Shown here: positions 1,734 through 22,929 of the stretch, one piece after another | Numbering within the stretch: position 1 is the first letter of the stretch | Layout: every line of letters starts with the position of its first letter | IMG/VR virus record: IMGVR_UViG_3300010392_000184 | Span: 1-29,645 of that record | Direction: 5' to 3' (one strand) | DNA from: a virus | DNA length: 29,645 nucleotides | The notes under the pieces: model-generated | What the model saw: only the letters and a program-made list of their open reading frames with translations | What the model was told of the DNA's origin: nothing | Database searches by the model: none | Made by a program: the position numbers and the translations under genes

Positions 1734-1750
1734 TAAACCGGTTTATTGTT
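1734..1750 (-). promoter_or_regulatory. Conserved 17-bp late-promoter motif, copy 3 (cargo operon)
   Basis: On the minus strand it reads AACAATAAACCGGTTTA. It contains the perfect 12-bp palindrome TAAACCGGTTTA and overlaps the stop codon of the gene ending at 1743. Closely related copies lie at 14474-14490 before gpI and 22913-22929 before lys. The dyad suggests a dimeric activator, the Mor/C-type protein encoded at 26441-26875 being the natural candidate. The assignment is inferred. Confidence 0.5.
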
Positions 1751-2297
1751 CGGGCCAACCCGCATTGATATCAGTCAACGGATCAGTCGCAACAGCTTGC
1801 TCGAGGCTGTCGCTGTATGCGCGGATCGCCTTGATTGAATCCCAGACGGCCTGAATATCTGCGATTTCCTGTTCCTCGGCTGCTGACAGCGACCCCTCGG
1901 CCACCTGTTTTTTGAGCAGCTCCAGACCACGGGCAGACAGGTTGCGCTGCTTCCACTCTGGATACATAGCGACAATCTTCTGGTAGGCGATCTCATTGAT
2001 CTTGGGCAGCTTCCGCGCCACGATGTCGGCGTCGTCGCGCTGCGTCAGGACCGGCGTTGCCATCACTTTGTCGGGGCCGATCTCGTATGAATACGAGGAG
2101 ACGTAGTGCGTGTCCGGGTCGTACTGCACCGCCGCAACCTCTTCCGGGAGCCAGCCAAGGGCAATAACGTCTCCCGTGTGACCCTTGCTCCACATCTCTG
2201 CCAGCGGATATTGGACGCCGTTGTCGCTGCTCCACATCCTGGGCAGCGGAATCGGCCCTTCGATGATTGAATTGTCCTCTACTCTAAAAAAGTTCAT
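1743..2297 (-). CDS. Tail fibre-associated or fibre-assembly-like protein
   Basis: 184 residues from the ATG at 2297 (MNFFRVEDN). A longer in-frame start at 2357 would lie inside the upstream gene and is less likely. The gene follows the LamG-type fibre gene by 1 nt and ends the structural operon. The N-terminal half has short aromatic repeats, and residues around 100-170 are helical and acidic. The position after the fibre is typical of fibre chaperones or small tail-tip decorations, but I do not recognise a defined domain. The stop codon overlaps the conserved regulatory motif at 1734-1750. Confidence 0.6.
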   Translation of the reverse strand: MNFFRVEDNSIIEGPIPLPRMWSSDNGVQYPLAEMWSKGHTGDVIALGWLPEEVAAVQYDPDTHYVSSYSYEIGPDKVMATPVLTQRDDADIVARKLPKINEIAYQKIVAMYPEWKQRNLSARGLELLKKQVAEGSLSAAEEQEIADIQAVWDSIKAIRAYSDSLEQAVATDPLTDINAGWPEQ

Positions 2298-2298
2298 T

Positions 2299-3030
2299 TT
2301 AGCCTCGCGTGGGGAATGGATCTGTGGGGATGGGGAAAGAAGCGGTATATCGAGCAACGCCTCTCGTTATCCGTACTGGGCCAAAGTGCCCGTCAAAAGC
2401 GTTTTCGCCACTTACTGCACTTGCTCCGATGGTGGCATCGTCAGATTGAGCAGCCAATGAGCCACTTCTTGAGTAAGTGACATCCAAAGTTCCGTTCACA
2501 AATCCACGGAAACTACTTCCTTCCCTGGCAACCGCAATGTGGGTCCATGCTCCGGTTGGAATATTTATAGAGCCTGTCCCAAACCCTCCATTAATGTTCC
2601 ACGAACTACCACCGATAGTGGAGCCAATGATGTAAAGCCTGTTGTTCCCGGACACGTTTTTAATGCCGAGGAGAATTGGAGACGATTCTCCAAAACCAGA
2701 TCGCTTACCGAACAGGTGCTGCTCGCCAGACGCAACATCTGGCCGAATCCACCCCTCGATGCAAAAATTGTCGGAGCCAAAATCTAATCTGTTGTCATCC
2801 GGTGTTTGGATGAAGTCCCCTGAACCGTCCCCCAAGACAGACCGACCGTAAAATTTCGACTGAGCGGTATCGATCTGAACATTGCCCTTGGCGACCAGGG
2901 TGCGGTTGAAGTCGGAAAGGTCGGTAAATGATGTGCTGCCATCAGCTTCGGTTCTCGGCTGAAGCAACAATTCAACATTTGCCCAATACGGGTCTCTTGG
3001 GCCAGCGATAAAGCCGCGATTAAACATCAA
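2299..3030 (-). CDS. LamG/concanavalin-like tail fibre or receptor-binding protein
   Basis: 243 residues. From about residue 55 it follows the LamG-like jelly-roll pattern: GDGSGDFIQTPD, an FCIEGWIRP strand, then GAWTHIAVAREGSSFRGFVNG and a closing GPVRITRGVARY. Proteins with this pattern at the tail tip bind glycans and act in host recognition. It overlaps the preceding fibre gene by ATGA and is followed 1 nt later by the last structural gene. It is short for a complete fibre, so it probably works as a separate tip module on the product of 3027-4043. Diversity-generating target repeats were looked for at its 3' end and not seen. Confidence 0.75.
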   Translation of the reverse strand: MMFNRGFIAGPRDPYWANVELLLQPRTEADGSTSFTDLSDFNRTLVAKGNVQIDTAQSKFYGRSVLGDGSGDFIQTPDDNRLDFGSDNFCIEGWIRPDVASGEQHLFGKRSGFGESSPILLGIKNVSGNNRLYIIGSTIGGSSWNINGGFGTGSINIPTGAWTHIAVAREGSSFRGFVNGTLDVTYSRSGSLAAQSDDATIGASAVSGENAFDGHFGPVRITRGVARYTASFPIPTDPFPTRG

Positions 3031-4043
3031 GCAAACCCTTGTGCGATGCCCATGAACTGGAGCTTTATGCCGTTACTTCTGAAGGACAGCAGGTCCTCCG
3101 CACCCGCTGCCGTAGACAGCGTTGGACTGCCTGCGTCCCCAAAGTCGAAATCGGCGGAATAGGCCAGCGTCCTGTTCCCTGTTCCGTCTTGAATAGCCAG
3201 GAACGAACACCATGTGCCAGCCGGGGGAATGGCGGTCGCGTCCAGAGTGCGGTTGCCACCCAAGGTCGCCTTGGCCTCCGCCCCGTTTGAGATATTCCAA
3301 CTGATGGTCGCGCCGTCGGTGAGGGTCTGCTCGGCAAGATAGGGGTTGCCACTGACTGATTTGTTGCCGGTTGTGCTTGATCGCAGGTACTGCTCTTGCA
3401 ATACATGTATCTGCATCCTTTTCAGCACACCACCATCGTTGATCAGCAGTTCATCGGTTGCTGCCAAGCCACTTCCCAATGCTGGCTTCCCGGTTATCGC
3501 GGCAACCTGCAACGTGGTCGCACCGTCACCGCTGGAGGTGACATCGCCGGAGTGGTTGGGGTGGACGTAGAGCGAGATCACCACCCAGGTGGAACCGTTA
3601 TAGACCCGCAGGTTGCCCGCCGAGGTATTCCAGTACAGTGCACCGGTGAGCAGTGCATCGCCGTCATTGTCAGTCGTCGGGTCGCTTGATTTTGCACCCA
3701 AGTAGCGGTCGTCGAAGTTGTCCAGGGCGGCCTCAGCCAGCGCCTGTGCCGCCTCGGCTACGCTCTGTGCAGCCAGGGCGCCTGATTCAGCATTGCCCGC
3801 ATTGGTTTCAGATGTGGCCGCGTTGCCCTCTGACGTGGATGCGGCGCTGGCGCTATTGGCCGCCGATGTGGCATCGGCATCCACCTGAGCCGCCACGTTG
3901 TTCATTTCCGTGATGGCAGCGTTCTCTTCGGTCACCATGCCGGGCAGTGCCGCCAAAAACGTGTCCGCCTTGTTGGCAAAGGTGGTTGGATCGTCTGTGC
4001 GCTGCGGCGCAGCGGGCAGCGTTGTAATTAACGGTATGCTCAT
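3027..4043 (-). CDS. Tail fibre/spike protein with Ala-rich collar
   Basis: 338 residues. Residues 45-115 are an Ala/Ser/Glu-rich helical repeat (AASTSEGNAATSET style) as in the coiled-coil shafts of trimeric phage fibres. It is followed by a module with LYWNTSAGNLRVYNGSTWV, a widespread fibre motif, and a C-terminal beta-rich domain ending with an NRTLAYSADFDFG pattern. It starts by ATGA overlap with the 311-aa tail gene and ends by overlap with the LamG gene. The three probably form the receptor-binding tip. Confidence 0.75.
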   Translation of the reverse strand: MSIPLITTLPAAPQRTDDPTTFANKADTFLAALPGMVTEENAAITEMNNVAAQVDADATSAANSASAASTSEGNAATSETNAGNAESGALAAQSVAEAAQALAEAALDNFDDRYLGAKSSDPTTDNDGDALLTGALYWNTSAGNLRVYNGSTWVVISLYVHPNHSGDVTSSGDGATTLQVAAITGKPALGSGLAATDELLINDGGVLKRMQIHVLQEQYLRSSTTGNKSVSGNPYLAEQTLTDGATISWNISNGAEAKATLGGNRTLDATAIPPAGTWCSFLAIQDGTGNRTLAYSADFDFGDAGSPTLSTAAGAEDLLSFRSNGIKLQFMGIAQGFA

Positions 4044-4975
4044 ACGAGGCCCTCAATTTGGATCGAGCAATCGGAGTACTCAGGCCCCGATAGCACAATG
4101 TCGAAATCTCTGAAATAGCCGTAGATCAGGGTGCCCCAATCGCCGTCTGACTTGCCGGCCCACACCGCCGGGGTGGCGCGCAATGCGGCCAGCTGGTTGC
4201 GTACAATGCGCGTCTGGTGCGTTTGCAGGATCAAATCGAACTCGCCGCGCTGGGAGTAGTCGCGCTCGATCACCACGGCGTTGCCGAAGGTGTCACGATC
4301 TTTGCGGGAGTAGTCGATAATGCCGATGCTGGCCCCGAACTGGGTGTCGCCGATTTCTGTAAAGCGGCCCAGGGCGATCTCGCCGACACTCGCGTCGCCA
4401 CTGGCTACATTCAACGTGATGTCGATGTCTGCGGCGGCATAGAGCGGCAGATCGAACAGCACCAGCTCGCGGTAGTTGATTATGGGATCGTAAAAGTAGT
4501 GATACCAATCCGACACCGAGCCGTTGTCAACCAGGTCGACTGTCGTGGTGTAAACCACCCCGTCCACCGGGTCGGTGATGGTGATGTCCACCGAGTCGGC
4601 ATCCACGTTGAACATGGCGACGCTGTTGGCAATCGCCCCCAGGGTCAGGGTGATCGAGATGCCCCCGGTTCGGGTCGACGGATCGGCCAGGCGCTGGTCA
4701 AACATTTTCCAGCGGTTGGTGGCGGATACCTCCAGCCACTTGTCGGCATTGTTGGTCTGATCGGTGGGGTCATTGCCGGTGTTGGAGGCAATCAACGATT
4801 CGTAGATTTTGTGGGTGGCCGTCGCGGCCCCGCCACCGGTGCCGGTCACCATGACCTTATCGCCCAGGGCATAGGTGGTGGCACTGCTGTATTCCGTCTC
4901 ATCCGTTTCAGGGATGTTGGTCGCAGTCATTTTGCCGTTGGCCGGCGTCACATCGATGGGATTGATGATTCTCAT
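4040..4975 (-). CDS. Tail-tip protein directly after the tape measure (distal tail/hub candidate)
   Basis: 311 residues. Residues 25-95 resemble a small tip domain seen in tail proteins (ATTYALGDKVM ... NKWLEVS-like pattern, then RWKMFDQ). The middle is beta-rich (ITDPVDG, VDLVDNG), and the C-terminal 120 residues (GDTQFGASIGIIDYSRK ... IQIEGLV) look like a tail structural domain. It overlaps the tape-measure stop by 4 nt. Siphophages need a distal tail protein and a hub. As no other candidates are present, this gene probably covers at least one of these jobs. The function is inferred from position. Confidence 0.55.
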   Translation of the reverse strand: MRIINPIDVTPANGKMTATNIPETDETEYSSATTYALGDKVMVTGTGGGAATATHKIYESLIASNTGNDPTDQTNNADKWLEVSATNRWKMFDQRLADPSTRTGGISITLTLGAIANSVAMFNVDADSVDITITDPVDGVVYTTTVDLVDNGSVSDWYHYFYDPIINYRELVLFDLPLYAAADIDITLNVASGDASVGEIALGRFTEIGDTQFGASIGIIDYSRKDRDTFGNAVVIERDYSQRGEFDLILQTHQTRIVRNQLAALRATPAVWAGKSDGDWGTLIYGYFRDFDIVLSGPEYSDCSIQIEGLV

Positions 4976-7900
4976 GATACTGAGCGAGTCTCCGGCAAGC
5001 CGTCATTCTCCCAGCGGTCGGCGATCTTGGCCGACTTCAGGGTATTTTTGGCGATCTGGTACTGGCCAGTTCGGTTTTCTCCGCGCATGCGCTCAACCTC
5101 GGCCCGCAGCGCCCTAAGCTCTGCCACCACTTCGCTGTTGTCCAGCAGCCTGCTGGTGTCGCCGGAGTTGGCGATGTAGGACGGGCCGGTAAACTCCAGC
5201 TCCGGGCCGGTTTCACCGACCACACGCAGCCCCCCGGCGTGATAGCCACCGGAGGCAAAGCCGGGGATATTGTCGATGGTGCCGCCCCCGGTGAAGTGGG
5301 CGCGCAGAAAGTCGGTGCGCGAGGCGAAGTTGTCCGGGTTCAGGGCCTTGGCGATGTCTTGCACCACATCCACCGTGGCCTCGCCGGCGGTAATCACCTG
5401 GTCAAATGCCGGCGCCAGCGTCAACATGGTGGCGAACATGTCCCGGCCACTCTGCGTGGTCAGGTCGAACGACTCCACCAGGCTGCGGAACTCCATACGG
5501 GTTTCCGGCATGGAGAGATTCAGCTCGCCGATGACGGCCACCAGCTGATCGTTGATGCGGGCCAGCTTTTCCTCTTCGCTATAGTATCGATCGTAATACT
5601 GGCCTGTGGCTGCCGACAGGTTCTCAATGCCGCCGAAGGATGCCGCCACTTTTGAGGCTTCCACCATGCCGGTGATGCTGTCGGCAAACGTCTGGAAGCC
5701 GAGGTTGCCGAGAATGTCTTGCACACCGGCGAACTCTTGCTGGACACGGATCAGGGTGTCGGCCAGCAGCTCACCCTCTTTGGACAAATCCAGCAGCGGC
5801 TGTACATCAACCGCCGTGCCGGTCATCTCATTGACCGTTGATATCCAGGCGTTCAGGAAATCATCCGGGGCGCGCTTGAGCTGGTTGGTGTCGACCCGGT
5901 TGAAGGACGCGGCCCCGATCAGGTTGCCAACGGCATGGCCCGCCTCGCCCTTGCCAGGCAGCGTGGTCTTGCTCAAGTCAATACCATCGACGCCAAGGGA
6001 GTTGTAAACGCCCAGCAAAGCCGCATCGATTGATGCGAACATATCGCGCAGCTCGCGGGCAGCCTCGGCCCCTTTGCCACCAACGCGTTTTGCTACAGGC
6101 GTCAACCACAGGCCGGACTCCGCCTGTATGGCCTGATTTGGAGCCCAGCCGGTGCCGAACTTGCCGGTGGCCACCGCCAGGTTCACCCGCTTTTTGCCGT
6201 CGCCGCCGAACGCGCCATCCAGGAACCCACCAAGAGTGCCGCCGAAGAACGCGCCGATGGGGCCGCCCAGCAGCGCACCGCCGATGGCCCCTACGGTTGA
6301 TCCGATATTGGAGTTGGCCTGTTTGCCAAAAAGTCCTTCGCCGAGGCCGGTGCCTACAAAACTGCCAGCCAGCCCGCCGAGTGTCGATAGCGCCAGACCA
6401 CCGGTGGTAATGCCATTAAGCTGGCTGCCGATCGCGCGGAGCGTTTGTGAGCCGGTGTTGGCCCCCAGGGTGTAGATTGTTTCTCCGATGCCGCGCAGAG
6501 GGTTGCCACTGAGCAGCGCCTTGCCGGCGCTGTAGATGTTCGACACGCCAGACAGCAGGCCACCGCCGCCTGATCCGCCACCGGTGATATTACTCAGCAG
6601 ACCGCCCGCGCTTGCCGCGCTTGACCCGCCACCCAGTCCCAGTGATACCAAAATGGGCTTCGTCACTGCCTGGTGGGCCAACTCTGCTAACAGGCGTTTA
6701 AAGCTATTTTTCAGGCTGTCCGCAAAATCCTCAAAGCTATCGAACGCACCTTCCCAGGCATCGGCAAAAGACTCATCAATGCGCTTGGTCGCCTCCTCCC
6801 ACGCATCGGCGAACGGATCTGCCTCTTCCTTAACATTCTCGATTTTGTCCTGGTAATCGCCCAGAGCTTTTTCGGCATCGTAGCGGGCCGCTATCTCTTC
6901 CCGCAGGCGCTTCACTTCCTCGGGCAGCAGATTTTTTGCATTGGCCCGGCGCAGCTCCACCTCAATGTACTTCTCGCGGTTGAATGCCTCCAGGGCAGCG
7001 CCACCAGCAATGGTGGCAGACAGCTCACGCTTTAGCAGTTCCGTTTCAAACTGGAGATTGCCGACGGTTGCCTGGTATGTTTCCTGGATTCGCGCCTTTT
7101 GCTCCGCCAGCTTTTTCTGTTCATCAGTCAGCTCACCTGTGGCCGTAGCGACATTACCAAGCTCTTCTTCAAGGCTCGGTAATCCCTTGACGAACTCGCT
7201 AATTGCAGCGGGAGCTTTTTCATAGGTTTTTATTGCATCCTCAAGGCGCTTTTTATTTTCACGCAACGCCTCTGCCTGATTCAAAAGGGGCTGGATAACA
7301 GCTTCAAAACCGGACTCACTGCTATTCAGTCGGCGGCTTTGATCTGCAATTTCCTTCTCGACTTTAGCAAGCGCCTCATTAATTTCATCCAGCTTAACTT
7401 GAGCGCTCGTTTTGCCGAGGTTCTTCATTGATGCAATCAGTTCATCAACATCACCGGTAAAGTTTTTAACCTCGGCTTTTGAATTAAAGAGAGCGTCACG
7501 AAACAGGTAAATGCCAGTTGCAGCCGTAACAGCAAGTCCAACTGGGCCGCCTATCAATCCCAATAGTCCTCGCATACTCAGCATGGCTAAATTATGGGCT
7601 TTCTGTGCTGTTGTCAGCCTGGTAATAGCACCGGTATAAAGACTTACCGAAGTTCCCGCCGTTCCATAACCAGCGGACGCAGCCAATGCTGCGACTCGCT
7701 CTTTAGCCCATAATCCTGTGGAGGTAGCAAGACTTGTCGCTAAACGTACACCAATAACCGCAGCCAACACCTCGGCCACTGATAGAACCTGCTCAATGCT
7801 TTCAGGGTCTAGTGCATCAAGCCTCTGTGAAACAGCTTGTATACCTTCAGCCAAGCCTTGCATGGCCGTAGTTTTGTCATCCACCAGGCCAAGAGCTCTA

Positions 7901-8673
7901 GCCACACTATTGGCCAGCATGGTGGTGGCACGTTCAACAGAAAGGGGAATTTCCTCGAATTCCTGCGCAATTTCCGGGGCCTGTTTCAGCAAGGCATCGA
8001 AAACGTCCTTACTCAGAACTTCGCCCTCAAGCACGGCATTACGCAGCTGGCCGACTGTTTTTCCGAGTCCGCTTGCGATCCGGTTGGCTAACTCCGGCGT
8101 GTTCTCGATCAGGGAGTTGAATTCTTCAGCCCGGACAATCCCGCCCGCCATTGCCTGACTGAACTGCAGCAGGCCATTTTTCATCTGCTCGTTGGTGCTG
8201 CCGCCAATTACACCCAACTGCTGTACCAAATTGGTCAGTGTGAGAATCTGCGAGTTGGTGGCGTTCAGCTCAGGGGCAGTACGAGCCAAGGACTGGAAAA
8301 GCTCGACCGTAGAGGCTAGCTGCGCGCCATTTCGTTGCGTAATCGCAAAGAGCTCGCGCTGCACATTGAGATAATCACCGGTGGAACGAGTAGCAGTCTT
8401 TACCCGTTGGTCGAGAACATTGTATTGATCGGTCAGCGAGACAGTCTGCCGAAACAAATAGCCGACACCGACAGCGGCAATCGCGCCTTTTAGCGTATTA
8501 AAGGACTGGCTGAGATTTTTATTGGCTTGAGATTGGCGCTCAGTCTGACGCGTGGTTTTTTCCACCTCACCGGTAAACCCACGCACCTCACCCCGCACGT
8601 TGCCCAGGCCGCGAACAACGACCTGCTCACCGTTGAGTTCGAGCTGCAATCCAAACTTCAGGTTGTCATTCAT
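4972..8673 (-). CDS. Tail tape measure protein
   Basis: 1233 residues, the longest gene here. The N-terminal 260 residues match the tape-measure N-terminal family: LTDQYNVLDQRVKTATRS, ELFAITQRNGAQLASTVELFQSLART, IVRAEEFNSLIENTPELANRIASG. Around residues 340-390 there are hydrophobic segments, then coiled coil to about 620. A Gly/Ser-rich and hydrophobic stretch at about 680-820 would reach the host membrane, and the C-terminal part carries the usual GFASGGYHAGG ... VGETGPELEF. It sets tail length and helps DNA pass the inner membrane. It follows the G/GT frameshift pair with an 8-nt overlap, the canonical siphophage order. About 1.5 angstrom per residue would give a tail near 180 nm. Confidence 0.95.
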   Translation of the reverse strand: MNDNLKFGLQLELNGEQVVVRGLGNVRGEVRGFTGEVEKTTRQTERQSQANKNLSQSFNTLKGAIAAVGVGYLFRQTVSLTDQYNVLDQRVKTATRSTGDYLNVQRELFAITQRNGAQLASTVELFQSLARTAPELNATNSQILTLTNLVQQLGVIGGSTNEQMKNGLLQFSQAMAGGIVRAEEFNSLIENTPELANRIASGLGKTVGQLRNAVLEGEVLSKDVFDALLKQAPEIAQEFEEIPLSVERATTMLANSVARALGLVDDKTTAMQGLAEGIQAVSQRLDALDPESIEQVLSVAEVLAAVIGVRLATSLATSTGLWAKERVAALAASAGYGTAGTSVSLYTGAITRLTTAQKAHNLAMLSMRGLLGLIGGPVGLAVTAATGIYLFRDALFNSKAEVKNFTGDVDELIASMKNLGKTSAQVKLDEINEALAKVEKEIADQSRRLNSSESGFEAVIQPLLNQAEALRENKKRLEDAIKTYEKAPAAISEFVKGLPSLEEELGNVATATGELTDEQKKLAEQKARIQETYQATVGNLQFETELLKRELSATIAGGAALEAFNREKYIEVELRRANAKNLLPEEVKRLREEIAARYDAEKALGDYQDKIENVKEEADPFADAWEEATKRIDESFADAWEGAFDSFEDFADSLKNSFKRLLAELAHQAVTKPILVSLGLGGGSSAASAGGLLSNITGGGSGGGGLLSGVSNIYSAGKALLSGNPLRGIGETIYTLGANTGSQTLRAIGSQLNGITTGGLALSTLGGLAGSFVGTGLGEGLFGKQANSNIGSTVGAIGGALLGGPIGAFFGGTLGGFLDGAFGGDGKKRVNLAVATGKFGTGWAPNQAIQAESGLWLTPVAKRVGGKGAEAARELRDMFASIDAALLGVYNSLGVDGIDLSKTTLPGKGEAGHAVGNLIGAASFNRVDTNQLKRAPDDFLNAWISTVNEMTGTAVDVQPLLDLSKEGELLADTLIRVQQEFAGVQDILGNLGFQTFADSITGMVEASKVAASFGGIENLSAATGQYYDRYYSEEEKLARINDQLVAVIGELNLSMPETRMEFRSLVESFDLTTQSGRDMFATMLTLAPAFDQVITAGEATVDVVQDIAKALNPDNFASRTDFLRAHFTGGGTIDNIPGFASGGYHAGGLRVVGETGPELEFTGPSYIANSGDTSRLLDNSEVVAELRALRAEVERMRGENRTGQYQIAKNTLKSAKIADRWENDGLPETRSVS

Positions 8674-13347: not shown

Positions 13348-13848
13348 TCAGGCCTCCTGTTCAATGTCTTTCGGGTCCAAACCCATCTGGCTGCACACGG
13401 CAACCAGCGTCTCATCGGCCTCGGTTGCCTTGCCTTCCGGCTCTTTGCCGTGGGTCTGACTGCCACTCAGGGCCGCGATGGGCTGGGCGTTATCGAGGTA
13501 GGTGCGAAGGCTGGCAATGTTGGATTTGCCCAGCTCCAGCGCCCAGGGCTCCTGAGCCTTGAGCAACTTCTTGTCGGCGATGCCCTGGCTCACCAGGTCG
13601 GCAACTTCGTCGTTGTGGATGCGGGTAGTCAGCGCAGCAACCTCGGTTTTGAGGCTCTCCACGACAGCGACCGGAACATACTTCTCAGGGTCCGGATTGC
13701 CCGCTTCTTCCAGCTTCGAAGTGAGTGCGGCCACCTGGGTTTCCGCCGTTGTTTTTGCCTCCATCAGGGCAGACAGCGCCGCCTCGATTTTGGCTTCGTC
13801 CGCATCCTCGGCCAGGCCGAGCTGCTTTCTCAGCTTTACAAGATCCAT
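13348..13848 (-). CDS. Z: Nested scaffold protein, Mu gpZ type (internal in-frame start of gpI)
   Basis: An internal ATG at 13848 (gpI residue 200, MDLVKLRKQLG) would give a 166-residue acidic, helical protein identical to the gpI C-terminus. The ribosome site TGAGGA lies 7-8 nt before it, better than that of gpI itself. In Mu and lambda the scaffold is produced in this nested way and outnumbers the protease. The start coincides with the shift from the globular protease domain to coiled coil. It should assemble inside the prohead and be degraded on maturation. Confidence 0.75.
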   Translation of the reverse strand: MDLVKLRKQLGLAEDADEAKIEAALSALMEAKTTAETQVAALTSKLEEAGNPDPEKYVPVAVVESLKTEVAALTTRIHNDEVADLVSQGIADKKLLKAQEPWALELGKSNIASLRTYLDNAQPIAALSGSQTHGKEPEGKATEADETLVAVCSQMGLDPKDIEQEA

Positions 13849-14445
13849 TTCTGGTTCCTCAGTTTTTTTTGAGTGCGTGAAAAACGTGCTGGCAGCGGCG
13901 AGGATTTCATCCATGCCATCCACTGCCGGAAAGTTGGTGATTGCAGCCATCAACAGCTCCACCACCTCGCCGGTTTTGGTGAACGAAAACACCGGAGAGA
14001 TAAAGCGGTATTCCTTGTCGGCCAGATAAGCGGTGGCTTTCTCGGTCCAGGCGACATCAACGGCATAGAGTCCATCGCCTTCGCGCCACTCCAACTTGGT
14101 GAACCAGGCAGCCGCCGGCGCAGGATTGCCCGTCTGCTTGGCGGTGAGCGTTTGGTGCTCGTAGTCGATGACAAAGGGGGTTTTTCTGGTCTCGGCCAAG
14201 GCAATGACCCTGGCGGCTATCTCAGCATCGATATACCAGGTATCGGTATTGACCTCGTCCATATTGCCGGGGCGACCGTCGCGGGCCTTAAAATACCCGG
14301 CGGGCATCAGCTGGACTTCGGAGGAGCCCGGTTTTACCTCCAACTCGGCAGCACAGGCGCTGACAAAAAGGTCGCCACTGGCCACCTCTGTGGGAAGGGC
14401 AGCGCAGATGGCAATGGCGAGGGCAGTACGTTTCATGCCCTCCAT
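13348..14445 (-). CDS. I: Head maturation protease, Mu gpI family
   Basis: 365 residues. The N-terminal 190 residues hold the protease domain: VQLMPAGYFKARDGRPGN, then TPFVIDYEHQTLTAKQTGNPAPAAAWF with the conserved acidic/His segment, then EYRFISPVFSF and LLMAAITNFPAVDGM. The C-terminal part is acidic coiled coil typical of a scaffold. It cleaves scaffold and itself during capsid maturation. Two starts are possible, ATG at 14445 or the in-frame ATG 9 nt later, and neither has an ideally spaced site. A conserved 17-bp motif lies 29 nt upstream (14474-14490), matching the place of the Mu PI late promoter. Confidence 0.9.
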   Translation of the reverse strand: MEGMKRTALAIAICAALPTEVASGDLFVSACAAELEVKPGSSEVQLMPAGYFKARDGRPGNMDEVNTDTWYIDAEIAARVIALAETRKTPFVIDYEHQTLTAKQTGNPAPAAAWFTKLEWREGDGLYAVDVAWTEKATAYLADKEYRFISPVFSFTKTGEVVELLMAAITNFPAVDGMDEILAAASTFFTHSKKTEEPEMDLVKLRKQLGLAEDADEAKIEAALSALMEAKTTAETQVAALTSKLEEAGNPDPEKYVPVAVVESLKTEVAALTTRIHNDEVADLVSQGIADKKLLKAQEPWALELGKSNIASLRTYLDNAQPIAALSGSQTHGKEPEGKATEADETLVAVCSQMGLDPKDIEQEA

Positions 14446-14473
14446 TCTGGGGAGCCATAAAAACGCGCGGGAA

Positions 14474-14490
14474 TAAAGGGATTAATTGTT
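14474..14490 (-). promoter_or_regulatory. Conserved 17-bp late-promoter motif, copy 2 (before gpI)
   Basis: On the minus strand it reads AACAATTAATCCCTTTA and matches copies before lys and the cargo operon. It lies 29 nt before the gpI start, where Mu has the late promoter PI. A TTTTTAT stretch downstream at about 14456-14462 could be the -10 region. Confidence 0.5.
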
Positions 14491-15397: not shown

Positions 15398-16639
15398 TTC
15401 CTTGCCATTGCTGTGGCGGAAGCTCTGCAGGTACAACTTGCCGCCCTTGGTCGACTTTACCACCGCCACAAAGTACTTATCCGCCTGGCGGTAGAACAGC
15501 AGATGGCTGGCGCGGTCTTCCACCACCAGCACGGCATCCTGCAAGGTGGGCTGCACCTGCAGGTAATCCACCAGGGTCAGGGCATCGTTGCGATTGATCA
15601 GCTGCTTGGCCAGGGTGTCATCACTCAACCACACCGCCTGGCCTTTGGCGCCGATCGCACTCCGATACCTGCTGTTCAGCACAGCCACCGGGAATTCATC
15701 ACCACCCAGGTGTGGCCGCAACTGCCTGCGCAGATCCGCGTCGCCAATATCCGGGGCATCGGCCCGCGCCTGGGCAACCATCCCGGACAGTCGAGTGTAA
15801 AAGCGATCAAACGGCGGGCCAGTCAGCACCCCCTCGGCATATTGCCTGGCGGTAGCGTAGGGGTATTTGTCCAGATCGGGGAACCAGTGCGCTGCGCCTG
15901 GGTTGTAGCTCCAGCCCACGTCCGGGGCAAACACCTGGCCGTCACCCAGGTCAAAGGTGGTCACCGGCTGCAACTCCCCGGTGCGCTTACTCACGAGGCG
16001 CTGTGATTCCCCCAGCTTACCCTCGGAGGATTCCACCTCGATGCCCATGTCGGCCACCTGCTTGGCGGTCAGCGCCCGGATGCGACAGCGACACCCCCAG
16101 CCGTTAGGCGGGTGGATGCTTTTCCAGATCGGATCATCCCAGCGAAATACCCGGCCATGCAGGGCGCGGTGCTCCGGGCGGGTCTTGCTATCCAGGACAG
16201 CAATGTACATCCAGTAGGGCCGTTCGGCGGCATTCTCCACCATGCCCTTGTAGCGCCCGGCCATGTAGGCGGTTTGCAGGTTCGTCTGGTAGACAGTACG
16301 CAGACGGCGCACACTGCCCAGCTGCACGCTCTGCAACTCGCCCTGGGGGTTGAGTACTTCCTGACGACCCCACCAGCCCTTGCGGCGCAGGGTGGGCTCC
16401 AGCTCTTTTCGGAAGTCGGCAAAGGTGGTGCCGTCGCGGAGGGCATCGCCCACGCTGGTGCGGATATCCTCCAACACATCCAGGCGCATGGCCTTAGCCA
16501 CGGTAAAGGCGCGGGCGTTGGCCTCCTGCCAGGTTTCGTACCAGGGCCAGGAAATACGGTGGCCCTTGCTTTCAAAGTACTCCACCGCCTTTTCCGGCGT
16601 CAGGCTGAACGCGTAGGCCAGATCGACGGGATCAGCCAT
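15377..16639 (-). CDS. F: Head morphogenesis protein gpF with C-terminal PBECR-like nuclease domain
   Basis: 420 residues. Residues 110-190 carry the SPP1 gp7/Mu gpF signature: RTVYQTNLQTAYMAGRYKGM, then LDSKTRPEHRALHGRVFRWDD and HPPNGWGCRCRI. This minor head protein is packed with the portal. From about residue 310 a second domain (AVWLSDDTLAKQLINR, LQDAVLVVED, LLFYRQADKYFVAVVKSTKGGKLYLQSFRHSN) resembles the phage Barnase-EndoU-ColicinE5/D-RelE (PBECR) nuclease-like domains fused to gpF. It overlaps the DUF2786 gene by TAATG. A 17-bp tandem duplication changes the last residues and stops translation early by about 9 codons. Confidence 0.85.
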   Translation of the reverse strand: MADPVDLAYAFSLTPEKAVEYFESKGHRISWPWYETWQEANARAFTVAKAMRLDVLEDIRTSVGDALRDGTTFADFRKELEPTLRRKGWWGRQEVLNPQGELQSVQLGSVRRLRTVYQTNLQTAYMAGRYKGMVENAAERPYWMYIAVLDSKTRPEHRALHGRVFRWDDPIWKSIHPPNGWGCRCRIRALTAKQVADMGIEVESSEGKLGESQRLVSKRTGELQPVTTFDLGDGQVFAPDVGWSYNPGAAHWFPDLDKYPYATARQYAEGVLTGPPFDRFYTRLSGMVAQARADAPDIGDADLRRQLRPHLGGDEFPVAVLNSRYRSAIGAKGQAVWLSDDTLAKQLINRNDALTLVDYLQVQPTLQDAVLVVEDRASHLLFYRQADKYFVAVVKSTKGGKLYLQSFRHSNGKEVATAGK

Positions 16640-17361
16640 TAAAACGCGGGCTCCCGTTCTTCCCCGGCACCTATGCCCTTGCGTTCGGTGCCGTTGACTC
16701 CCCGGTGCAACTCAGCTTTCCGACCAGCTTCATGGCCGGCGATGCAGTCGCTGTAGTCGCGAGATGTCAGCTTGTCGCCGGTCCGTGATCGGGATTTCAA
16801 CGATTGCAGATTGGGGTGGTGTTTCTGCATATAGGCTTCGATTGCCCGCTGCTGCTCAGGTGTGGCGGCAAATGCCTGGATCAGTTCGGTAACTGCCGAC
16901 ACCCAAGACTCACAAAACACGTCAGCTCGGCGGGTTTTGTTGGCCGGCTTGCAGCGTCTTAACCGCTTGCTGATATAGTCCTTTCGTGCGCGGCGACATT
17001 GCCGCAGCAACACCTTAAAAGCATACTCGGCAATTTCCGTGTTTGGCACACAGCCGATAAAGCACCAGCTGGCCGACCGACCAAATAGGCCACGCTGGAA
17101 AATGGATCGGCAGCCAAAGGCAACACATACCCTGGCCGCGAGATACGCTTCCCAACGGGCCGGGGTTTTGGTAGCGCCAGCCTTAACCAGGCGCTCCTCA
17201 GCGTCGGCGGCCTGAACGTCCTGGGCGGTGATGCCATGTTGCTCCATGAGCTTCTGTGCCTGGCGCAGAGCAGCCTTGGCTTCGTGCTCGTTACTGCTGG
17301 CGGAAAGAGCCAGGCATTTTTTGATCTTGTCGAGAATTTTATCTTTGTCTGAACCGGACAT
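16639..17361 (-). CDS. DUF2786-domain protein inserted between portal and gpF
   Basis: 240 residues. The N-terminal 45 residues fit DUF2786 (KILDKIKKCLALSASSNEHEAKAALRQAQKLMEQHGIT). It is followed by a second domain (CVAFGCRSIFQRG ... FIGCVPNTEIAEYAFKVLLRQCRRARKDYI) and a basic C-terminus, as in other DUF2786 proteins. The family has no settled function, and nucleic-acid contact is suggested by the basic residues. In Mu no such gene lies between gp29 and gpF, so this looks like an accessory insertion, yet it is perfectly packed (TAATG overlaps at both ends). Confidence 0.8.
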   Translation of the reverse strand: MSGSDKDKILDKIKKCLALSASSNEHEAKAALRQAQKLMEQHGITAQDVQAADAEERLVKAGATKTPARWEAYLAARVCVAFGCRSIFQRGLFGRSASWCFIGCVPNTEIAEYAFKVLLRQCRRARKDYISKRLRRCKPANKTRRADVFCESWVSAVTELIQAFAATPEQQRAIEAYMQKHHPNLQSLKSRSRTGDKLTSRDYSDCIAGHEAGRKAELHRGVNGTERKGIGAGEEREPAF

Positions 17362-17618
17362 TACTTGCTCTCAAATAGCTGTGGATGCAGATCCCTGAAC
17401 AGCAGGTCTTCCGCCTCTTGCCGAACCTCTCTGTGGGCCGATGCGGTGATCGCATCCAGGCTCTGTTACTCATAGAACCGCCCCCAAACCCAGCCGCCAA
17501 CTTCCTGACACCAACGGATATTCTCTCCACGGTTGCGCAGTTTTCTGGCCCGTCGAGGGTTCAGCACCAGACGCAGTTGCTTGGATTTCAATTTCTGATA
17601 AAGCTCGGCCTCAAGCAT
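17361..17618 (-). pseudogene. 84-codon gene interrupted by an in-frame TAA (codon 51)
   Basis: From the ATG at 17618 the frame encodes a basic protein (LEAELYQKLKSKQLRLVLNPRRARKL, in two parts) with an aromatic stretch GGWVWGRFYE, then TAA at 17468-17466. The same frame then runs on for 34 sensible residues (DAITASAHREVRQEAEDLL, then HPQLFESK) to a TAA that overlaps the next ATG. The 5' end overlaps the portal stop by 8 nt and the 3' end overlaps DUF2786 as TAATG. The packing at both ends says this was one gene. A single C-to-T change (CAA to TAA) would explain the stop. Stop read-through or sequencing error are alternatives. Product unknown. Confidence 0.65.
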
Positions 17619-19200
17619 TCAACCGCCCCCAGGTTTCGGCCACAAAGTAAAGGCGAGATAGCAACTCCTGGATGTCGTCGACGTTCAGGTCCGGGTAGAG
17701 GTCAGACAGTTCGTCCTCGATGCGCTCCAGGCTTTCGCCGGCGTTGATGCGCTCGATCAGCGGGGCCAGCATGGTTTCCATCTGGCGCTGCTGTCTCTCT
17801 GCAGGAACGGCTTTTAAGACGTCATCAATGGCCTGTTGAGGGCCGGGTAAATCAGTCTTAAGTGCGGCTAGGTGTTCATGCAGATTTGCTCGGAGATCAG
17901 CTCGACTGGTGTTGTCCTGGTTTGGATCGACAGGGGCTTCTAGTACATCGTCACCTTCTTCGGCCTGGGGAATACCCAGTCGTTCATGCACATAAGACTT
18001 GGGTATCTTCAGCCCCAGACTGACCAACTTACCAAGCGGGTAGGCATAGGAATCCATGTCCTCCGGAACACTGGTGTCGAACACAAACCGGGGGCAGTCG
18101 CCCAGGCCATTAATGCCCGGCACGTTGAGTGCCAGGATGGGATACAGCAGATCCCGCGTAATAGTGGCGGCGATCTGTTTCAGATCGCTGTCGCGGATAT
18201 CCATGCGCACGTCATCGTGCACGTTGCCCAGGGCGTTGGTGCTGGTTTTGCCATCAGCCTGGCTGGTGAGTGTGCCGCCGAGAATGGCCTTGCTCTGTGT
18301 GCGCTCACAGAATGCCATCATCGACTCATAGGGGCCGCTGGCGCCCTTGGCCGCTTCCTTGAAATCGATGTCCATGCCCTCGGGGATGATACCGGCAGCA
18401 TTGTGACCAATGCCTACCACTGCTTGCATCAGGGTCCACTTTTCGGCGTCGCTGGCACCGCTGGGGTATTTGCCCAGGCGCAGCGGCAGCCCGTAGATTT
18501 CCAGGAATTCCGCCAGGTCGCGAACGCTGTAGTTCTTGAACAGGAACGGCCAGGCCAGCACCCGCACCAGGCCGGCGCGGGTCACATAACCGGGGCGGGC
18601 TTTATGGATGTGCCGAATCCAGCCAAAGGTTTGCAGTTTTTCACCCTGGCCAGTTTCGTTGCGCAAACGGATTTCGTTGCGGTTGTCATAGGGCGTCATA
18701 AACCAGGTGGCCGGGCGGTGCTGCAGCGATACCGGTAGATGGTAGCCCTCGACCAGGTGCCAGCCGTCAAACTCCAGATTGGCGTAGCCGTGGCCGATGG
18801 CGTCGGCCATGTCGAAAATAATGTCGTCCAGGTCGGGAATGTGATTAAACAGGTCGCTGACCAGCTCGGTATATTTCTTGGCCCGATCATCGGCCCCCTT
18901 GGGGGGTACGATATTCCAGGGCACGTTCAGCAGCGAGCGGCGGCGCTTGCCCATTTCGGCAAAGATGTGGCCGTCCTTCTCTTCCATGTCCTCCATCAGT
19001 TCGCTCTGCTCCACCAGGTTGCCCTGTTCGGCATCTTGGAGAATGCGGGCCACCTTGGCCGGGGTCAGGCCGCGGCTGGGGTGACCCTCAAAGGTGCTGT
19101 GGAGAAACCCCAGCTCACTGCGATCGGTCTGCGGTTCTTTCAGGTCGCGGATTCGGAAGGGGTCGCCGTACTGGTCCACGATTGTGCTGTTGCGTATCAC
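17611..19200 (-). CDS. Portal protein, Mu gp29 (DUF935) family
   Basis: 529 residues, the usual size. It starts MIRNSTIVDQYGDPFR and has GHGYANLEFDGW, then GLVRVLAWPFLFKNYSVRDLAEFLEIYGLPLRLGKYPSGA, the strongest DUF935 block, followed by the ILGGTLTSQADGKTS segment. It forms the dodecameric ring at one head vertex through which DNA is packaged. It starts with GTG overlapping the terminase stop (GTGA). The C-terminal 100 residues are helical and acidic. Confidence 0.95.
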   Translation of the reverse strand: MIRNSTIVDQYGDPFRIRDLKEPQTDRSELGFLHSTFEGHPSRGLTPAKVARILQDAEQGNLVEQSELMEDMEEKDGHIFAEMGKRRRSLLNVPWNIVPPKGADDRAKKYTELVSDLFNHIPDLDDIIFDMADAIGHGYANLEFDGWHLVEGYHLPVSLQHRPATWFMTPYDNRNEIRLRNETGQGEKLQTFGWIRHIHKARPGYVTRAGLVRVLAWPFLFKNYSVRDLAEFLEIYGLPLRLGKYPSGASDAEKWTLMQAVVGIGHNAAGIIPEGMDIDFKEAAKGASGPYESMMAFCERTQSKAILGGTLTSQADGKTSTNALGNVHDDVRMDIRDSDLKQIAATITRDLLYPILALNVPGINGLGDCPRFVFDTSVPEDMDSYAYPLGKLVSLGLKIPKSYVHERLGIPQAEEGDDVLEAPVDPNQDNTSRADLRANLHEHLAALKTDLPGPQQAIDDVLKAVPAERQQRQMETMLAPLIERINAGESLERIEDELSDLYPDLNVDDIQELLSRLYFVAETWGRLNA

Positions 19201-20777
19201 CAGGCACCTCCTTTGGTCATAGGCATGTCGCTGTCTCTGTCGATGTCATCCCACTTGCTTCGAGAGGTGGGGGCCGGGGTCCAGTCGATTTCACCGCCGT
19301 CTTCAAAGCTGGCGGAATAGGCCAGACAAATAGCCACCGCCGCATCGCCGTGGCGATTCTTGTTCTTGTTGGTGGTGTTGGTGTTGCCATCCGGAATACG
19401 GGGAATGCCCTTGACCAGCTGGATGGCCCGCAGGTCGCTGGCCACCTCGTCATCCTTGGGAATCTGGATGTCATCATCCTCAAACCCGGCTTTGAGTTTG
19501 GGCATGTTTTCCAGGTACCAGCCCTGGCTGAGCATGATCTCATCCACTCTCGCTGCCCCATAGGCGTAGCGGGCTTGCTCGGCCAGGTACTGGCCATTGC
19601 CTCGGGCGTCCAGCTTGGCCTTGCACAACCGTGGCAGGCGATCGCAAATGTACTTGAGAATCTGCTCCTGCTGCCTGAACGGGACATTCTGCAACTCGAC
19701 GATAAACGGCACCCGGCGCACCAGGTTGGCCTCAATGGCCATTGGCACCATGACGGTGAGGTCGCCGTTGCGGGCGAAGTCCTCGCCAAAGCTGTGGCGC
19801 AATACAGGGTTAAGCTGCTCCAGGAGGGGCAACAAGTTCTGTTCGCACCAGTCGCGGACTTCCGCCTCGCGCAGGTGTTCCGGCCAAGCGTTGAATTCCG
19901 TCGAGCCGGTGTAGCGAATCACCGGCGCGTCATACATGCGGGCCTCAACCAGGGCGCGGGAAAGGTAGGCCCCGCCACCGGACTTGGGCACACAGCCGTA
20001 TTCCTCGTCGGCATCCTCTTTCGAGGCGGTGTCGTTGTAGAGGTCGGCCTTCCACTGATTTTCCGCTTCCTGGGACCAGGGCTTTTTGGTGATCTGGCAG
20101 ATCCGCTTATACAGACCCTGGGCACAGGCGTCCTCCAGGGTGATGCGGTGCACCGAGTAGCGCTTCTTCCCGGCGCGGCTGTCGTTGATCAGCTCGTTGA
20201 ACAGATTGTCCACGCCATTGTGAGTGCTGATGATCCGCACCTTATTGCCCCACATGGTGAGTGCCAGGGCGGCCTTGAGCACTTCCGCCAGGCGTTCGTG
20301 GAACGCGGCCTCGTCAATCACTACGTTGCCCTGCATACCTCGCAGGTTTTTCGGGTTTGAACTGAGCGCCTGGACTTTAAAACCGCTGGCGAAGTACACC
20401 ACGAAGGTAAGGATGTCCTTGTCTTCATCCTCGAAGACTTCTTCCTGAATTTCAGTGGCGGCCAGGTTGTAGGCGCCGGCCCACATGCCCACGGCGTCGA
20501 TAAACTCGCGGGCCATTTCCTTGTTGGAGCCGATGTAGAAGGTGTTGCAGCCGCCAGCGGACTTCGACTTGGATGCCTCCAGGGAATCGTCGGCGGCTTC
20601 TGCCCAGGTCAACCCGGTACGGCGTGACTTCTCGGCGATCTTGAGGGGCGATAAATCAGCGCACCATTTCTTCTGATACGGCAGCAGCACGTCCTCCGGA
20701 TTGAACGCTGTGTGCCAATCGGGGGCATTGACGGTGCCACCGCCCAGGGGCTTGTTGATGCCAATCTCAGCGGCCAT
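19197..20777 (-). CDS. Terminase large subunit, Mu gp28 family
   Basis: 526 residues from the ATG at 20777 (MAAEIGINKP). A longer frame reaching 20879 runs through the upstream gene and is unlikely to be used. The ATPase centre shows a Walker-A variant, EKSRRTGLTW (about 49-58), and Walker B VVIDEA (about 152-157), then the coupling motif ISTHNG. The nuclease half has acidic residues in the block FGEDFARNGDLTV and near the C-terminal HGDAAVAICLA. It cuts and packages phage DNA. The start overlaps the gp27 stop by 11 nt. Confidence 0.95.
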   Translation of the reverse strand: MAAEIGINKPLGGGTVNAPDWHTAFNPEDVLLPYQKKWCADLSPLKIAEKSRRTGLTWAEAADDSLEASKSKSAGGCNTFYIGSNKEMAREFIDAVGMWAGAYNLAATEIQEEVFEDEDKDILTFVVYFASGFKVQALSSNPKNLRGMQGNVVIDEAAFHERLAEVLKAALALTMWGNKVRIISTHNGVDNLFNELINDSRAGKKRYSVHRITLEDACAQGLYKRICQITKKPWSQEAENQWKADLYNDTASKEDADEEYGCVPKSGGGAYLSRALVEARMYDAPVIRYTGSTEFNAWPEHLREAEVRDWCEQNLLPLLEQLNPVLRHSFGEDFARNGDLTVMVPMAIEANLVRRVPFIVELQNVPFRQQEQILKYICDRLPRLCKAKLDARGNGQYLAEQARYAYGAARVDEIMLSQGWYLENMPKLKAGFEDDDIQIPKDDEVASDLRAIQLVKGIPRIPDGNTNTTNKNKNRHGDAAVAICLAYSASFEDGGEIDWTPAPTSRSKWDDIDRDSDMPMTKGGAW

Positions 20778-21339
20778 CAGCAATACCCAGGATTTTATCT
20801 CGGATGGCGCGGGCTCCCTCGTCGGTGAGGCCGGCTTCGCGGGCACTGGTGGCCGCCTCTTCCGCCGCCTGCTCAGCAAACGCTGTGCGAATTTCTTTCT
20901 CGCGCTTGGCGTTCATCTCGGCGGCTCGCGCCAGGCGCTGGATGGAGAGGGTGACATCCTTCATGGCGTCGGGATCAAACAGCTGATCGTCATCACCCTC
21001 GGAGGCTTTGAGGGCATACTTGAACAGTGCGCCCTGACACATCTCCACCACCAGCTGCAGCACGTCGCTGGTGGGCTCATCGCCGAAGCGGGCCATCCAG
21101 ACATTGGCGACTTCGCGGGTTTCCTTGAGCCGGGCACCCACGGCCTCCATACGGGTGGCGTAGCGGTTCAGGCCGCTGCGGCTGAGGTGATCGTCTTCCG
21201 GCAACAGTTTGTTGATGTGCTCCAGAATGTCCTGTTGGGTGTGGCGGCCATCGCGCAACAGTTTATTGAGGGCATCTTTTACCTCTTCCGGTAGCTGGTC
21301 CACTTTTGACGGACGGCCCCTTGTCTGGCGTTTGCTCAC
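20767..21339 (-). CDS. Small terminase-like protein, Mu gp27 (DUF3486) family
   Basis: 190 residues. It opens with RGRPSKVDQLPEEVKDALNKLLRDGRHTQQDILEHINKLL, the DUF3486 signature and a helical DNA-binding domain, followed by SGLNRYATRMEAVG. It probably recognises the packaging site and partners the gp28 terminase directly downstream. The start is GTG overlapping the upstream stop (GTGA), with AGGAG 9 nt before it. Confidence 0.9.
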   Translation of the reverse strand: MSKRQTRGRPSKVDQLPEEVKDALNKLLRDGRHTQQDILEHINKLLPEDDHLSRSGLNRYATRMEAVGARLKETREVANVWMARFGDEPTSDVLQLVVEMCQGALFKYALKASEGDDDQLFDPDAMKDVTLSIQRLARAAEMNAKREKEIRTAFAEQAAEEAATSAREAGLTDEGARAIRDKILGIADGR

Positions 21340-21542
21340 AATGGCTGCTCCTGTTCACATTGGGTCAGGAAGGTCGGGCCGGTATCCTGGATAAAAATGG
21401 CCTTGAACAGGCCACCGCTTTTAGCGGCTCCTTCGGCAAAAAAATACCCGGCGACGTAGCAGCCGAAGCAAAAAGAAATGACAAACACCAGGGCATTCAA
21501 CCAACCCTTAAACCGGCCTTTTTTGGCCCCTTTATTGTCCAT
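21336..21542 (-). CDS. Small single-span membrane protein
   Basis: 68 residues: a basic N-terminus (KGAKKGRFKGW), one hydrophobic segment (ALVFVISFCFGCYVAGYFF, about 17-35) and a short polar tail with a Cys. It lies within the head-gene operon, overlapping gp27 (GTGA). A holin or spanin-like role is possible, since no clear holin is seen near lys, but one span with a basic N-terminus is not diagnostic. Confidence 0.6.
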   Translation of the reverse strand: MDNKGAKKGRFKGWLNALVFVISFCFGCYVAGYFFAEGAAKSGGLFKAIFIQDTGPTFLTQCEQEQPL

Positions 21543-21543
21543 A

Positions 21544-21840
21544 TCACTCTCCCGGCCTGGGCTTTTTCACGCCAGGCACGGTGGCGGCACCACTGGCGAC
21601 ATCTGCCCCGCGAGCGGTCAGTTCCGCCACTACCACGGAGCGCACTTCACGGGTATTCACCAAGCCCTGTTCTTCCAGCCAGGCCAGTTCGCCATGCAGC
21701 TTGTCGCGACTCAGGCGGTGGCTGAACTCGGCCAGCCCAGCCTGGATGATGGAACTGTTCAGGTCGTATCCGGTGGCCTCGGCCAGCAGGCGCAGGATCA
21801 CCAGGCGGCAGTCTTCCTGCAGGAGTTTTTGATAATTCAT
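21544..21840 (-). CDS. Mu gp26-like winged-helix phage protein
   Basis: 98 residues. The pattern CRLVILRLLAEATGYDLNSSIIQAGLAEFSHRLSRDKLHGELAWLEEQGLV is that of the VpaChn25_0724/Mu gp26 group, often misnamed ArsR-like because of its winged-helix look. The role is unknown. It always lies just before the terminase genes, so a packaging or head role is plausible. It abuts DUF2730 (shared ATG/stop nucleotides). Confidence 0.7.
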   Translation of the reverse strand: MNYQKLLQEDCRLVILRLLAEATGYDLNSSIIQAGLAEFSHRLSRDKLHGELAWLEEQGLVNTREVRSVVVAELTARGADVASGAATVPGVKKPRPGE

Positions 21841-22172
21841 TAGCGGCTCTCCCGGTGATTGAGCAGATGGTCGTGTATGAGCCCCAGGGTGCGATTCATC
21901 TGGTGCAGCTCTCCTTGCATTGAATTCTGGCTGGCCATCAACTCCGTGGTGCGCTTGTGCAGAACATTGAGGTCGTTTCTGCTGGGCACCTGTTTGATTG
22001 ATGTTTCTAGTGTGGTGACGCGCGTTGAGACGCTATTTATGGAAGCCGTCATATCGGAGGCGAACTTGTGCCGCACTTTGTCCCGATTGGCGAACCAGCT
22101 GTATATCCCAACCACGGACAACATCCCGGTGTTGACCATGTTCCAAATCAAATAAATTTTCTCCAGGTCCAA
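21840..22172 (-). CDS. DUF2730 (Mu gp25-like) membrane-anchored coiled-coil protein
   Basis: 110 residues if the start is TTG at 22172, which has AAGGAG six nt upstream. A GTG at 22208 would give 122 residues but lies inside the upstream gene and lacks such a site. An N-terminal hydrophobic segment (IYLIWNMVNTGMLSVVGIYSWF) is followed by coiled coil (SVSTRVTTLETSIKQV). The family sits between lysis and terminase genes in Mu-like phages. The topology suggests a membrane-tethered helix bundle, and a spanin-like or entry role is only a guess. Confidence 0.75.
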   Translation of the reverse strand: MDLEKIYLIWNMVNTGMLSVVGIYSWFANRDKVRHKFASDMTASINSVSTRVTTLETSIKQVPSRNDLNVLHKRTTELMASQNSMQGELHQMNRTLGLIHDHLLNHRESR

Positions 22173-22186
22173 GGTGCTCTCCTTAA

Positions 22187-22402
22187 CTACTCGTGGTAGG
22201 ACTGGCACTCGGTGCAGCGCACCGCTGAGGGGTTGGCTTTGAGGCGTTTCTTCTCAATGGGAAACCCGCAATCCTTGCAGATGCGCTTGCCATTCAAGAG
22301 CTGCGGTGTTTCAGCTGGGGGGCGACCCTCCCGCTGTGCTTTCAATGCTCTGCTGAGCCGCAACTGCTCCAGTTCGCTGGCGCGGTCGGCGTCGTCACTC
22401 AT
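22187..22402 (-). CDS. TraR/DksA-type zinc-finger protein
   Basis: 71 residues from the ATG at 22402, which has AAGGA six nt upstream and overlaps the lysin stop as ATGA. The alternative ATG at 22408 lacks spacing. It has an N-terminal acidic helix (DDADRASELEQLRLSRALKAQ) and a C4 zinc finger, CKDCGFPI ... CTEC. The short TraR class binds RNA polymerase in its secondary channel without needing ppGpp, so it could bias host or phage promoters during late growth. Mu-like phages commonly carry it at this site. Confidence 0.85.
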   Translation of the reverse strand: MSDDADRASELEQLRLSRALKAQREGRPPAETPQLLNGKRICKDCGFPIEKKRLKANPSAVRCTECQSYHE

Positions 22403-22875
22403 AAACATTCCTTGTTTGTTGGGAGGCCTGTTACGTAGGTTGCGCGTCCGTTTTCATCGAGCATGGAAGTAAGCACTTCGCGGCGCGGCTCCACGCCATT
22501 TGGGGCAATGCTGACGTGAGTCCACTCGTCGAACTCCAGGATGATTTGATCGAACGGAAGCAGGCTTTGCTCGATGATTCGGCACACCTCTATCGGCGTG
22601 TGGCCACTGGCCACAATGTCGGCGGCCAGGCCAAGAACGTGCTGGCTTTTCTTGCTGCCACGCAGCAACCGGTTCAGCTGGGGCGGCCTATAGCCGGAGG
22701 TGATATGGACAGGACCAATGACATTGCGCACCGGCTGCAAAATGGTGGTGGCCAAGCGGCGAAGATTTTCCACCACGGCTTCTGTCGGCGTCATATCCAC
22801 GCCATGCCGCGAGGCGGTCTGCGATCGCAGAAACTCGTCGAGGTAAAAGTTTTTGGCTAACTTGATTCTGGTCAT
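22399..22875 (-). CDS. Endolysin, peptidase M15 family
   Basis: 158 residues. It has KNFYLDEFLRSQTASRHG, then VHITSGYRPPQLNR, SQHVLGLAADIV and EWTHVSI. This is the zinc DD-peptidase M15A signature, with ligands H79, D86 and H120. It cleaves peptidoglycan crosslinks for lysis. No signal peptide is present, so export would need a holin, which is not obvious nearby. The ATG lies inside a perfect 12-bp hairpin (22870-22898), and a conserved late-promoter motif is 38 nt upstream. It heads the late operon, as lys does in Mu. Confidence 0.9.
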   Translation of the reverse strand: MTRIKLAKNFYLDEFLRSQTASRHGVDMTPTEAVVENLRRLATTILQPVRNVIGPVHITSGYRPPQLNRLLRGSKKSQHVLGLAADIVASGHTPIEVCRIIEQSLLPFDQIILEFDEWTHVSIAPNGVEPRREVLTSMLDENGRATYVTGLPTNKECL

Positions 22876-22898
22876 GACCCCATTTTGGGGTCATGACC
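22870..22898 (-). promoter_or_regulatory. Perfect hairpin enclosing the lysin start codon
   Basis: The arms GGTCATGACCCC and GGGGTCATGACC are separated by 5 nt (12-bp perfect stem), and the inner GGTCATGACC is itself palindromic. On the mRNA the ATG (22875-22873) and the only SD-like GGGG both lie in the 3' arm, so translation should be blocked until it is melted. As DNA it could equally be an operator. Confidence 0.7.
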
Positions 22899-22912
22899 GG
22901 GAGGGGTTGAAT

Positions 22913-22929
22913 TAAAGGGGTTTATTGTT
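22913..22929 (-). promoter_or_regulatory. Conserved 17-bp late-promoter motif, copy 1 (before lys)
   Basis: On the minus strand it reads AACAATAAACCCCTTTA. It begins within the stop region of the preceding gene (TAA at 22930-22928) and lies 38 nt before the lysin ATG, the position of the Mu Plys late promoter. See the copies at 14474-14490 and 1734-1750. Confidence 0.5.

Follow-up and report, generated by a model that had tools for sequence, protein, structure and literature searches.

The stretch analysed here (the window) is the partial virus record IMGVR_UViG_3300010392_000184, 29,645 bp long, from which the early region is missing. Its minus strand carries lys, gpI, one Mor/C-family activator gene and a com-containing cargo operon (Table 1). 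An earlier note on this DNA had pointed to three copies of a 17-bp motif, one ahead of each of lys, gpI and the cargo operon, and proposed them as late promoters at the places of Mu Plys, PI and Pmom. Comparison with related loci makes it very probable that a Mor/C-type activator uses the lys and gpI copies as late promoters.

Motif copies and the genes behind them

All three 17-mers are present on the minus strand (22929-22913, 14490-14474 and 1750-1734), and the window holds no further match at three or fewer mismatches. In 100 dinucleotide-preserving shuffles the motif matched 0.08 times on average and once at most. Copy 3 contains the perfect 12-bp palindrome TAAACCGGTTTA; copies 1 and 2 are imperfect versions of it, as the note had described. 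Counted from the motif's first base, the ATG lies 54 nt downstream both at lys (22929 to 22875) and at gpI (14490 to 14436). Profile matches bear out the identity of the genes behind the copies: an endolysin (PF08291), a protease (PF10123) and Com (PF10122).

A chance or repeat-derived likeness without regulatory function was already strongly disfavoured, and we regard it as extremely unlikely. Two of the three copies do overlap the stop codon of an upstream open reading frame (ORF), and relatives do not preserve the motif letter for letter. Against this stand the chance expectation of 0.08, the identical spacing to two start codons and a dyad position that is conserved in relatives.

Table 1. 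Features of the window, in window coordinates
Feature	Position	Strand	Remarks
Copy 1, putative activator dyad of the lys promoter	22911..22929	-	16-bp core 22926-22911; axis 22918.5 = -43.5 from lys ATG
-10 element CAAAAT, lys promoter	22882..22887	-	Register shared with the [TC]AnnnT hexamer of 93% of the 42 promoters aligned
Perfect inverted repeat GGTCATGACCCC-AAAAT-GGGGTCATGACC around the lys -10 element	22870..22898	-	3' arm includes lys ATG; proposed readthrough lock
lys, M15-peptidase endolysin	22399..22875	-	PF08291; predicted transcription start = A of ATG, 22875
Copy 2, putative activator dyad of the gpI promoter	14472..14490	-	Axis 14479.5 = -43.5 from ATG 14436
-10 element CAGAAT, gpI promoter	14444..14449	-	Flanking repeat CTCC/GGAG, short
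gpI, Mu I-type protease/scaffold	13348..14436	-	PF10123; predicted leaderless
Mor/C-family activator gene, the only one in the window	26441..26875	-	PF08765, E-value 6e-32
Copy 3, best palindrome, ahead of the cargo operon	1732..1750	-	Weak -10 candidate GACACT 1708-1703
Cargo operon downstream of copy 3	1..1632	-	ORFs 1405-1632, 1017-1394, 412-1020, Com 112-1

A DNA search among cultured phages found no near match to the window, and a gpI-based search of viral contigs yielded no relatives, so the comparison is based on distant homologues. Loci with lys homologues were drawn from viral contigs and bacterial genomes. The literal motif was not found in these loci, except in the near-identical contig L120. 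Many loci carry other dyads at the same place directly upstream of lys (GGAACCnGTTCC, ACTGAAGCGCTTCAGT, ATTAAAGCGCTTTAAT, CGAACC-N7-GGTTC and others), and copy 1 is matched in both place and symmetry. Within each phage gpI bears the same dyad as lys, a pairing that provides the counterpart to copy 2. When the long records of relatives are each searched with a pattern of their own, the phage's dyad is conspicuous at two places, the heads of both late operons. Record G002 has a weaker third match to its own dyad, the short degenerate pattern for G001 also yields chance-level matches, and in G012 and G013 the second copy sits elsewhere than a recognised gpI. The earlier note had named a scan of relatives for the motif as its check: dozens of relatives have a dyad at the same place before lys and gpI, and the 17-mer as such is not conserved. 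A separate search of viral contigs for the literal motif AACAATAAACCNNTTTA gave, among the matches listed, about the number of a rough chance estimate for 15 fixed bases and was not used.

The late-promoter proposal is supported for lys and gpI; the third site fits it less securely. No clear counterpart of the Pmom-like copy was seen in the relatives scanned, and its role as the Pmom equivalent is plausible only. With a promoter register borrowed from copies 1 and 2, transcription from copy 3 is predicted to start near 1696-1692 and to give an ordinary leader.

Promoter register and predicted transcription start

We aligned 50 promoters gap-free on the start codon (42 after redundancy was removed) and used 124 genes as controls. 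A [TC]AnnnT hexamer begins at -14 to -12 in 93% of the 42 promoters and in 0% of the controls; from its end to the ATG is 6-8 nt. All 42 promoters have a C immediately before the ATG (one GTG), compared with 31% of controls. Shine-Dalgarno-like sequences show the opposite trend (5% of promoters versus 80% of control genes). Complementarity of the dyad halves, relative to swapped halves, is maximal at an axis of -43.5, counting the A of the ATG as +1 (z 6.1), and both window axes fall exactly there. Column composition over 35 promoters reveals the -10 element and no -35 hexamer, the -35 region being occupied by the dyad.

At Mu Pm, the Mor dyad is centred -43.5 from a mapped start site (PMC4390567, PMC4287176). 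From the -10 register, C(-1)A(+1) and this shared dyad axis we infer that transcription begins at the A of the AUG. Late mRNAs of lys and gpI would then begin on the start codon and be leaderless. For window lys, the predicted start is based on the -10 spacing, C(-1)A(+1), the lack of a Shine-Dalgarno sequence and the dyad position. For gpI, an alignment of 13 gpI starts favours 14436 as the start codon over the first in-frame ATG, 14445. In many Mu-like phages, a Mor-type activator appears to set the transcription start at the very first base of the lysis gene and of the capsid-protease gene. A search of the open literature, with subscription papers outside its reach, found no report of leaderless late mRNA in Mu-like phages.

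The same promoters could instead start a few bases upstream or downstream and produce a short conventional leader, leaving leaderless initiation unused. Mu and several relatives (L148, L217, L220) do have leaders with ribosome sites. A shifted start is nevertheless quite unlikely given the invariant C(-1)A(+1), the constant distance from -10 element to ATG, the near absence of Shine-Dalgarno sequences and an axis lying -43.5 from the A.

Several loci were outside the set that defined the pattern: L123, L124, L205 and L207, and the phages D3112, B3, CF5a, VW-6B, DMS3 and a Klebsiella phage. The four L loci, which are without the layout at lys, have it at the first gene after Mor. The layout is also present in cultured D3112, LPB1, B3, CF5a, VW-6B and DMS3, and in the Klebsiella phage at I and P. 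In L258, L260, L261, L257 and B3 (L313:124-486), Mor is encoded on the other strand, a long way upstream of lys, and the lys dyad keeps its place.

The activator and the start-codon hairpin

By BLASTP, the window Mor-like protein shares 39% identity with Mu C and 37% with Mu Mor; solved structures of relatives are 1rr7, 9l0x and 9vw8. The note's remark that only one Mor/C-family gene is visible agrees with a single PF08765 match in the record. Among 25 related records, eight of them 35-41 kb long, 22 have one Mor-family gene and three have none. Complete genomes of D3112, B3, VW-6B and the Klebsiella phage have one each, and Mu has two in the same search. The family thus counts one gene in the window, with its early region missing, and at most one in any relative tested, versus two in Mu. 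These counts support the suggestion that a single activator may replace the Mor-to-C cascade.

Over 28 common taxa, dyad class requires 4 changes on the Mor tree, the minimum, versus 10 on the lys tree. L188 and L144, for example, have sister lys genes, yet their Mor proteins and dyads differ. This tracking is the best evidence that a Mor-family protein reads the dyad, and it speaks through descent, not binding. Another regulator, either a host protein or a phage repressor, could bind the dyad if agreement with Mor reflects shared descent only, as the genes of one phage have a common history. We consider this highly unlikely: in the same taxa dyad class follows Mor without an extra change and does not follow lys, and the axis lies at the known Mor position (PMC4390567). 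The motifs are very probably docking sites of the phage's single Mor-type activator.

The second element of these promoters is an inverted repeat, which in most cases brackets the -10 element or extends across the start. At window lys the stem is 12 bp long and includes the AUG, with a fold of -25.4 kcal/mol (z -5.3). Across the 42 promoters, stems average 5.36 bp, compared with 4.30 (standard deviation 0.13) after arms were swapped between promoters (z 8.1). Stems of at least 6 bp occur in 38% of these promoters and in 1% of the 124 controls. A pairing test at fixed register over all promoters was mostly uninformative because the stems shift by a few bases. Within one phage the arms at lys and I differ, which argues against a common protein site. 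An Rfam search of the window gave no match.

Relatives with a leader keep the hairpin (L148 lys, Klebsiella phage lys, Pseudoalteromonas HS6 gpI), and in them the 5' arm ends at or close to the predicted +1. Same-strand ORFs of the window extend right up to the lys promoter, and terminator-like sites on the lys strand between 22700 and 27000 occur only at least 690 bp upstream of lys; a readthrough mRNA is therefore plausible. The hairpin may act as a lock on such a message.

The repeat might instead work in DNA, where extrusion or bending would offer the -10 hexamer single-stranded in the loop and aid open-complex formation. The loop coincides exactly with the -10 hexamer in many promoters, and at Mu Plys, PI and PP open-complex formation is the step on which C acts (PMC4461284). 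The three leadered promoters named above retain the hairpin with the -10 element outside its loop, and only an RNA reading explains their predicted start at the end of the 5' arm. We therefore rank the DNA-cruciform explanation lower and consider it unlikely. At VW-6B lys (L315 3300-3410) there is a terminator-like hairpin followed by six T, and the predicted lys start cuts its 5' arm. This hairpin could terminate transcripts arriving from upstream, but late transcripts could not form it.

The RNA reading suggests the following sequence of events. Early transcription would yield the Mor-family protein, a dimer of which would bind the dyad at -43.5 in place of a -35 element. Once bound, the activator would recruit host RNA polymerase to the weak [T/C]AnnnT -10 element. 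At lys and gpI, polymerase would start on the A of the start codon, and the leaderless late mRNAs would need no Shine-Dalgarno sequence. The hairpin, with its 5' arm upstream of the start site and its 3' arm abutting or covering the start codon, would fold only in transcripts begun farther upstream. Its probable role is to block translation of lys, and of I in many relatives, until the late promoter fires. The comparison establishes the position and symmetry of the dyad, its sharing by lys and I, its following of Mor, the -10/C(-1)/ATG register and the covarying arms. Mor binding, the exact transcription start, leaderless translation and the locking role of the hairpin are the interpretive part of this scheme.

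Some observations count against it. The lys members of the aligned set were chosen by eye for showing the layout, and the alignment is anchored on the ATG by construction; the -10 element, C(-1) and dyad axis are not so anchored. Agreement between trees amounts to co-inheritance, not binding. The window gpI hairpin is not significant (z -0.35), and no clear stem is seen in L129, in L146, at the gpI of L279 or at the first gene after Mor in L207. Other variants have a leader (L148, L217, L220, Klebsiella lys, VW-6B lys). At gpI, the layout is absent from phages of Mannheimia and Pasteurella (Pasteurellaceae), Vibrio phage martha and a Faecalibacterium (Firmicutes) phage. With these points weighed, we find it quite likely that the whole reading is correct, with Mor/C dyads at late promoters, leaderless lys and gpI mRNAs and a hairpin that locks readthrough messages.

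Comparison with known systems and annotation

The closest parallel is Mor at Mu Pm, which shares the dyad centred at -43.5, the lack of a -35 element, the use of host RNA polymerase and a Mor-family activator (PMC4390567, PMC4287176). The window differs in that its dyads sit at late operons (lys, I), seemingly with one activator, and that the start is predicted on the start codon. The operons are the same as those that C serves in Mu from Plys, PI, PP and Pmom, and the window protein is slightly nearer C than Mor. Mu also has inverted repeats spanning the I and lys starts (7 bp at I, GCCATCA/TGATGGC at lys); here we infer the placement of the Mu late start sites. Mu late genes differ: their leaders carry annotated ribosome sites, their control runs through a two-step Mor-to-C cascade, and their dyad is another one. 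Transcription of lambda cI from PRM gives a leaderless mRNA with its 5' end at the AUG. The 5' end would be the same here, but cI is a lysogeny gene, and the genes in question here belong to the lysis and head operons of many phages.

In T4 gene e (lysozyme), a hairpin in the longer early transcripts hides the translation start; the late promoter lies within the 5' strand of the hairpin, and late mRNA escapes (PMC3014915). The likeness extends to a lysis gene, a 5' arm upstream of the late start site and a 3' arm that covers or adjoins the translation start. The T4 promoter depends on a phage sigma factor and its mRNA has a conventional leader, whereas the window layout combines an activator with a host sigma-70-type -10 element, is mostly leaderless and also serves a capsid protease gene.

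It is fairly probable that a large and widespread part of the Mu-like phages, D3112 and DMS3 included, expresses leaderless lysis and head operons from one Mor-family activator and silences readthrough with a hairpin, having reached a T4-like lysis lock independently. Late promoters and a probable activator site can now be located in Mu-like phages, among which only Mu had been worked out. Base-exact transcription starts are predicted for commonly used laboratory phages. The results suggest that whole late lysis and head operons can be leaderless in proteobacterial phages, which was unexpected. If this is true, Mu, the textbook case, is an exception with two activators.

The promoter register also bears on existing annotations: it suggests a corrected gpI start codon in D3112, DMS3 and B3 and, for D3112 and DMS3, a first late gene that the annotation lacks. 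The annotated gpI starts that appear misplaced are B3 L313:19857, D3112 L312:11919 and DMS3 L325:10100; the register puts the start at a nearby ATG, downstream in B3 and upstream in D3112 and DMS3. The unannotated ORF starts with ATGAGCACATCTAGCCCC; it follows the late promoter immediately, with the Mor gene on one side and the first of the annotated late genes on the other (D3112, L312 about 2740-3050; DMS3, L325 about 1198).

Some neighbouring genes deserve mention. In the window, the interval 23188-23943, just upstream of lys, encodes a Rha-family regulator (PF09669) whose C-terminal part matches a winged helix. Ahead of Com, the cargo operon encodes within 412-1394 a weakly alpha/beta-hydrolase-like protein, the weak match falling in ORF 412-1020, and a small lipoprotein-like protein; its final ORF within the window, Com, runs off the window end. 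In D3112 and DMS3, anti-CRISPR genes lie between gpG and the gpI late promoter (AcrF2, L312 10928-11575; type I-E, L325 9338-9755).

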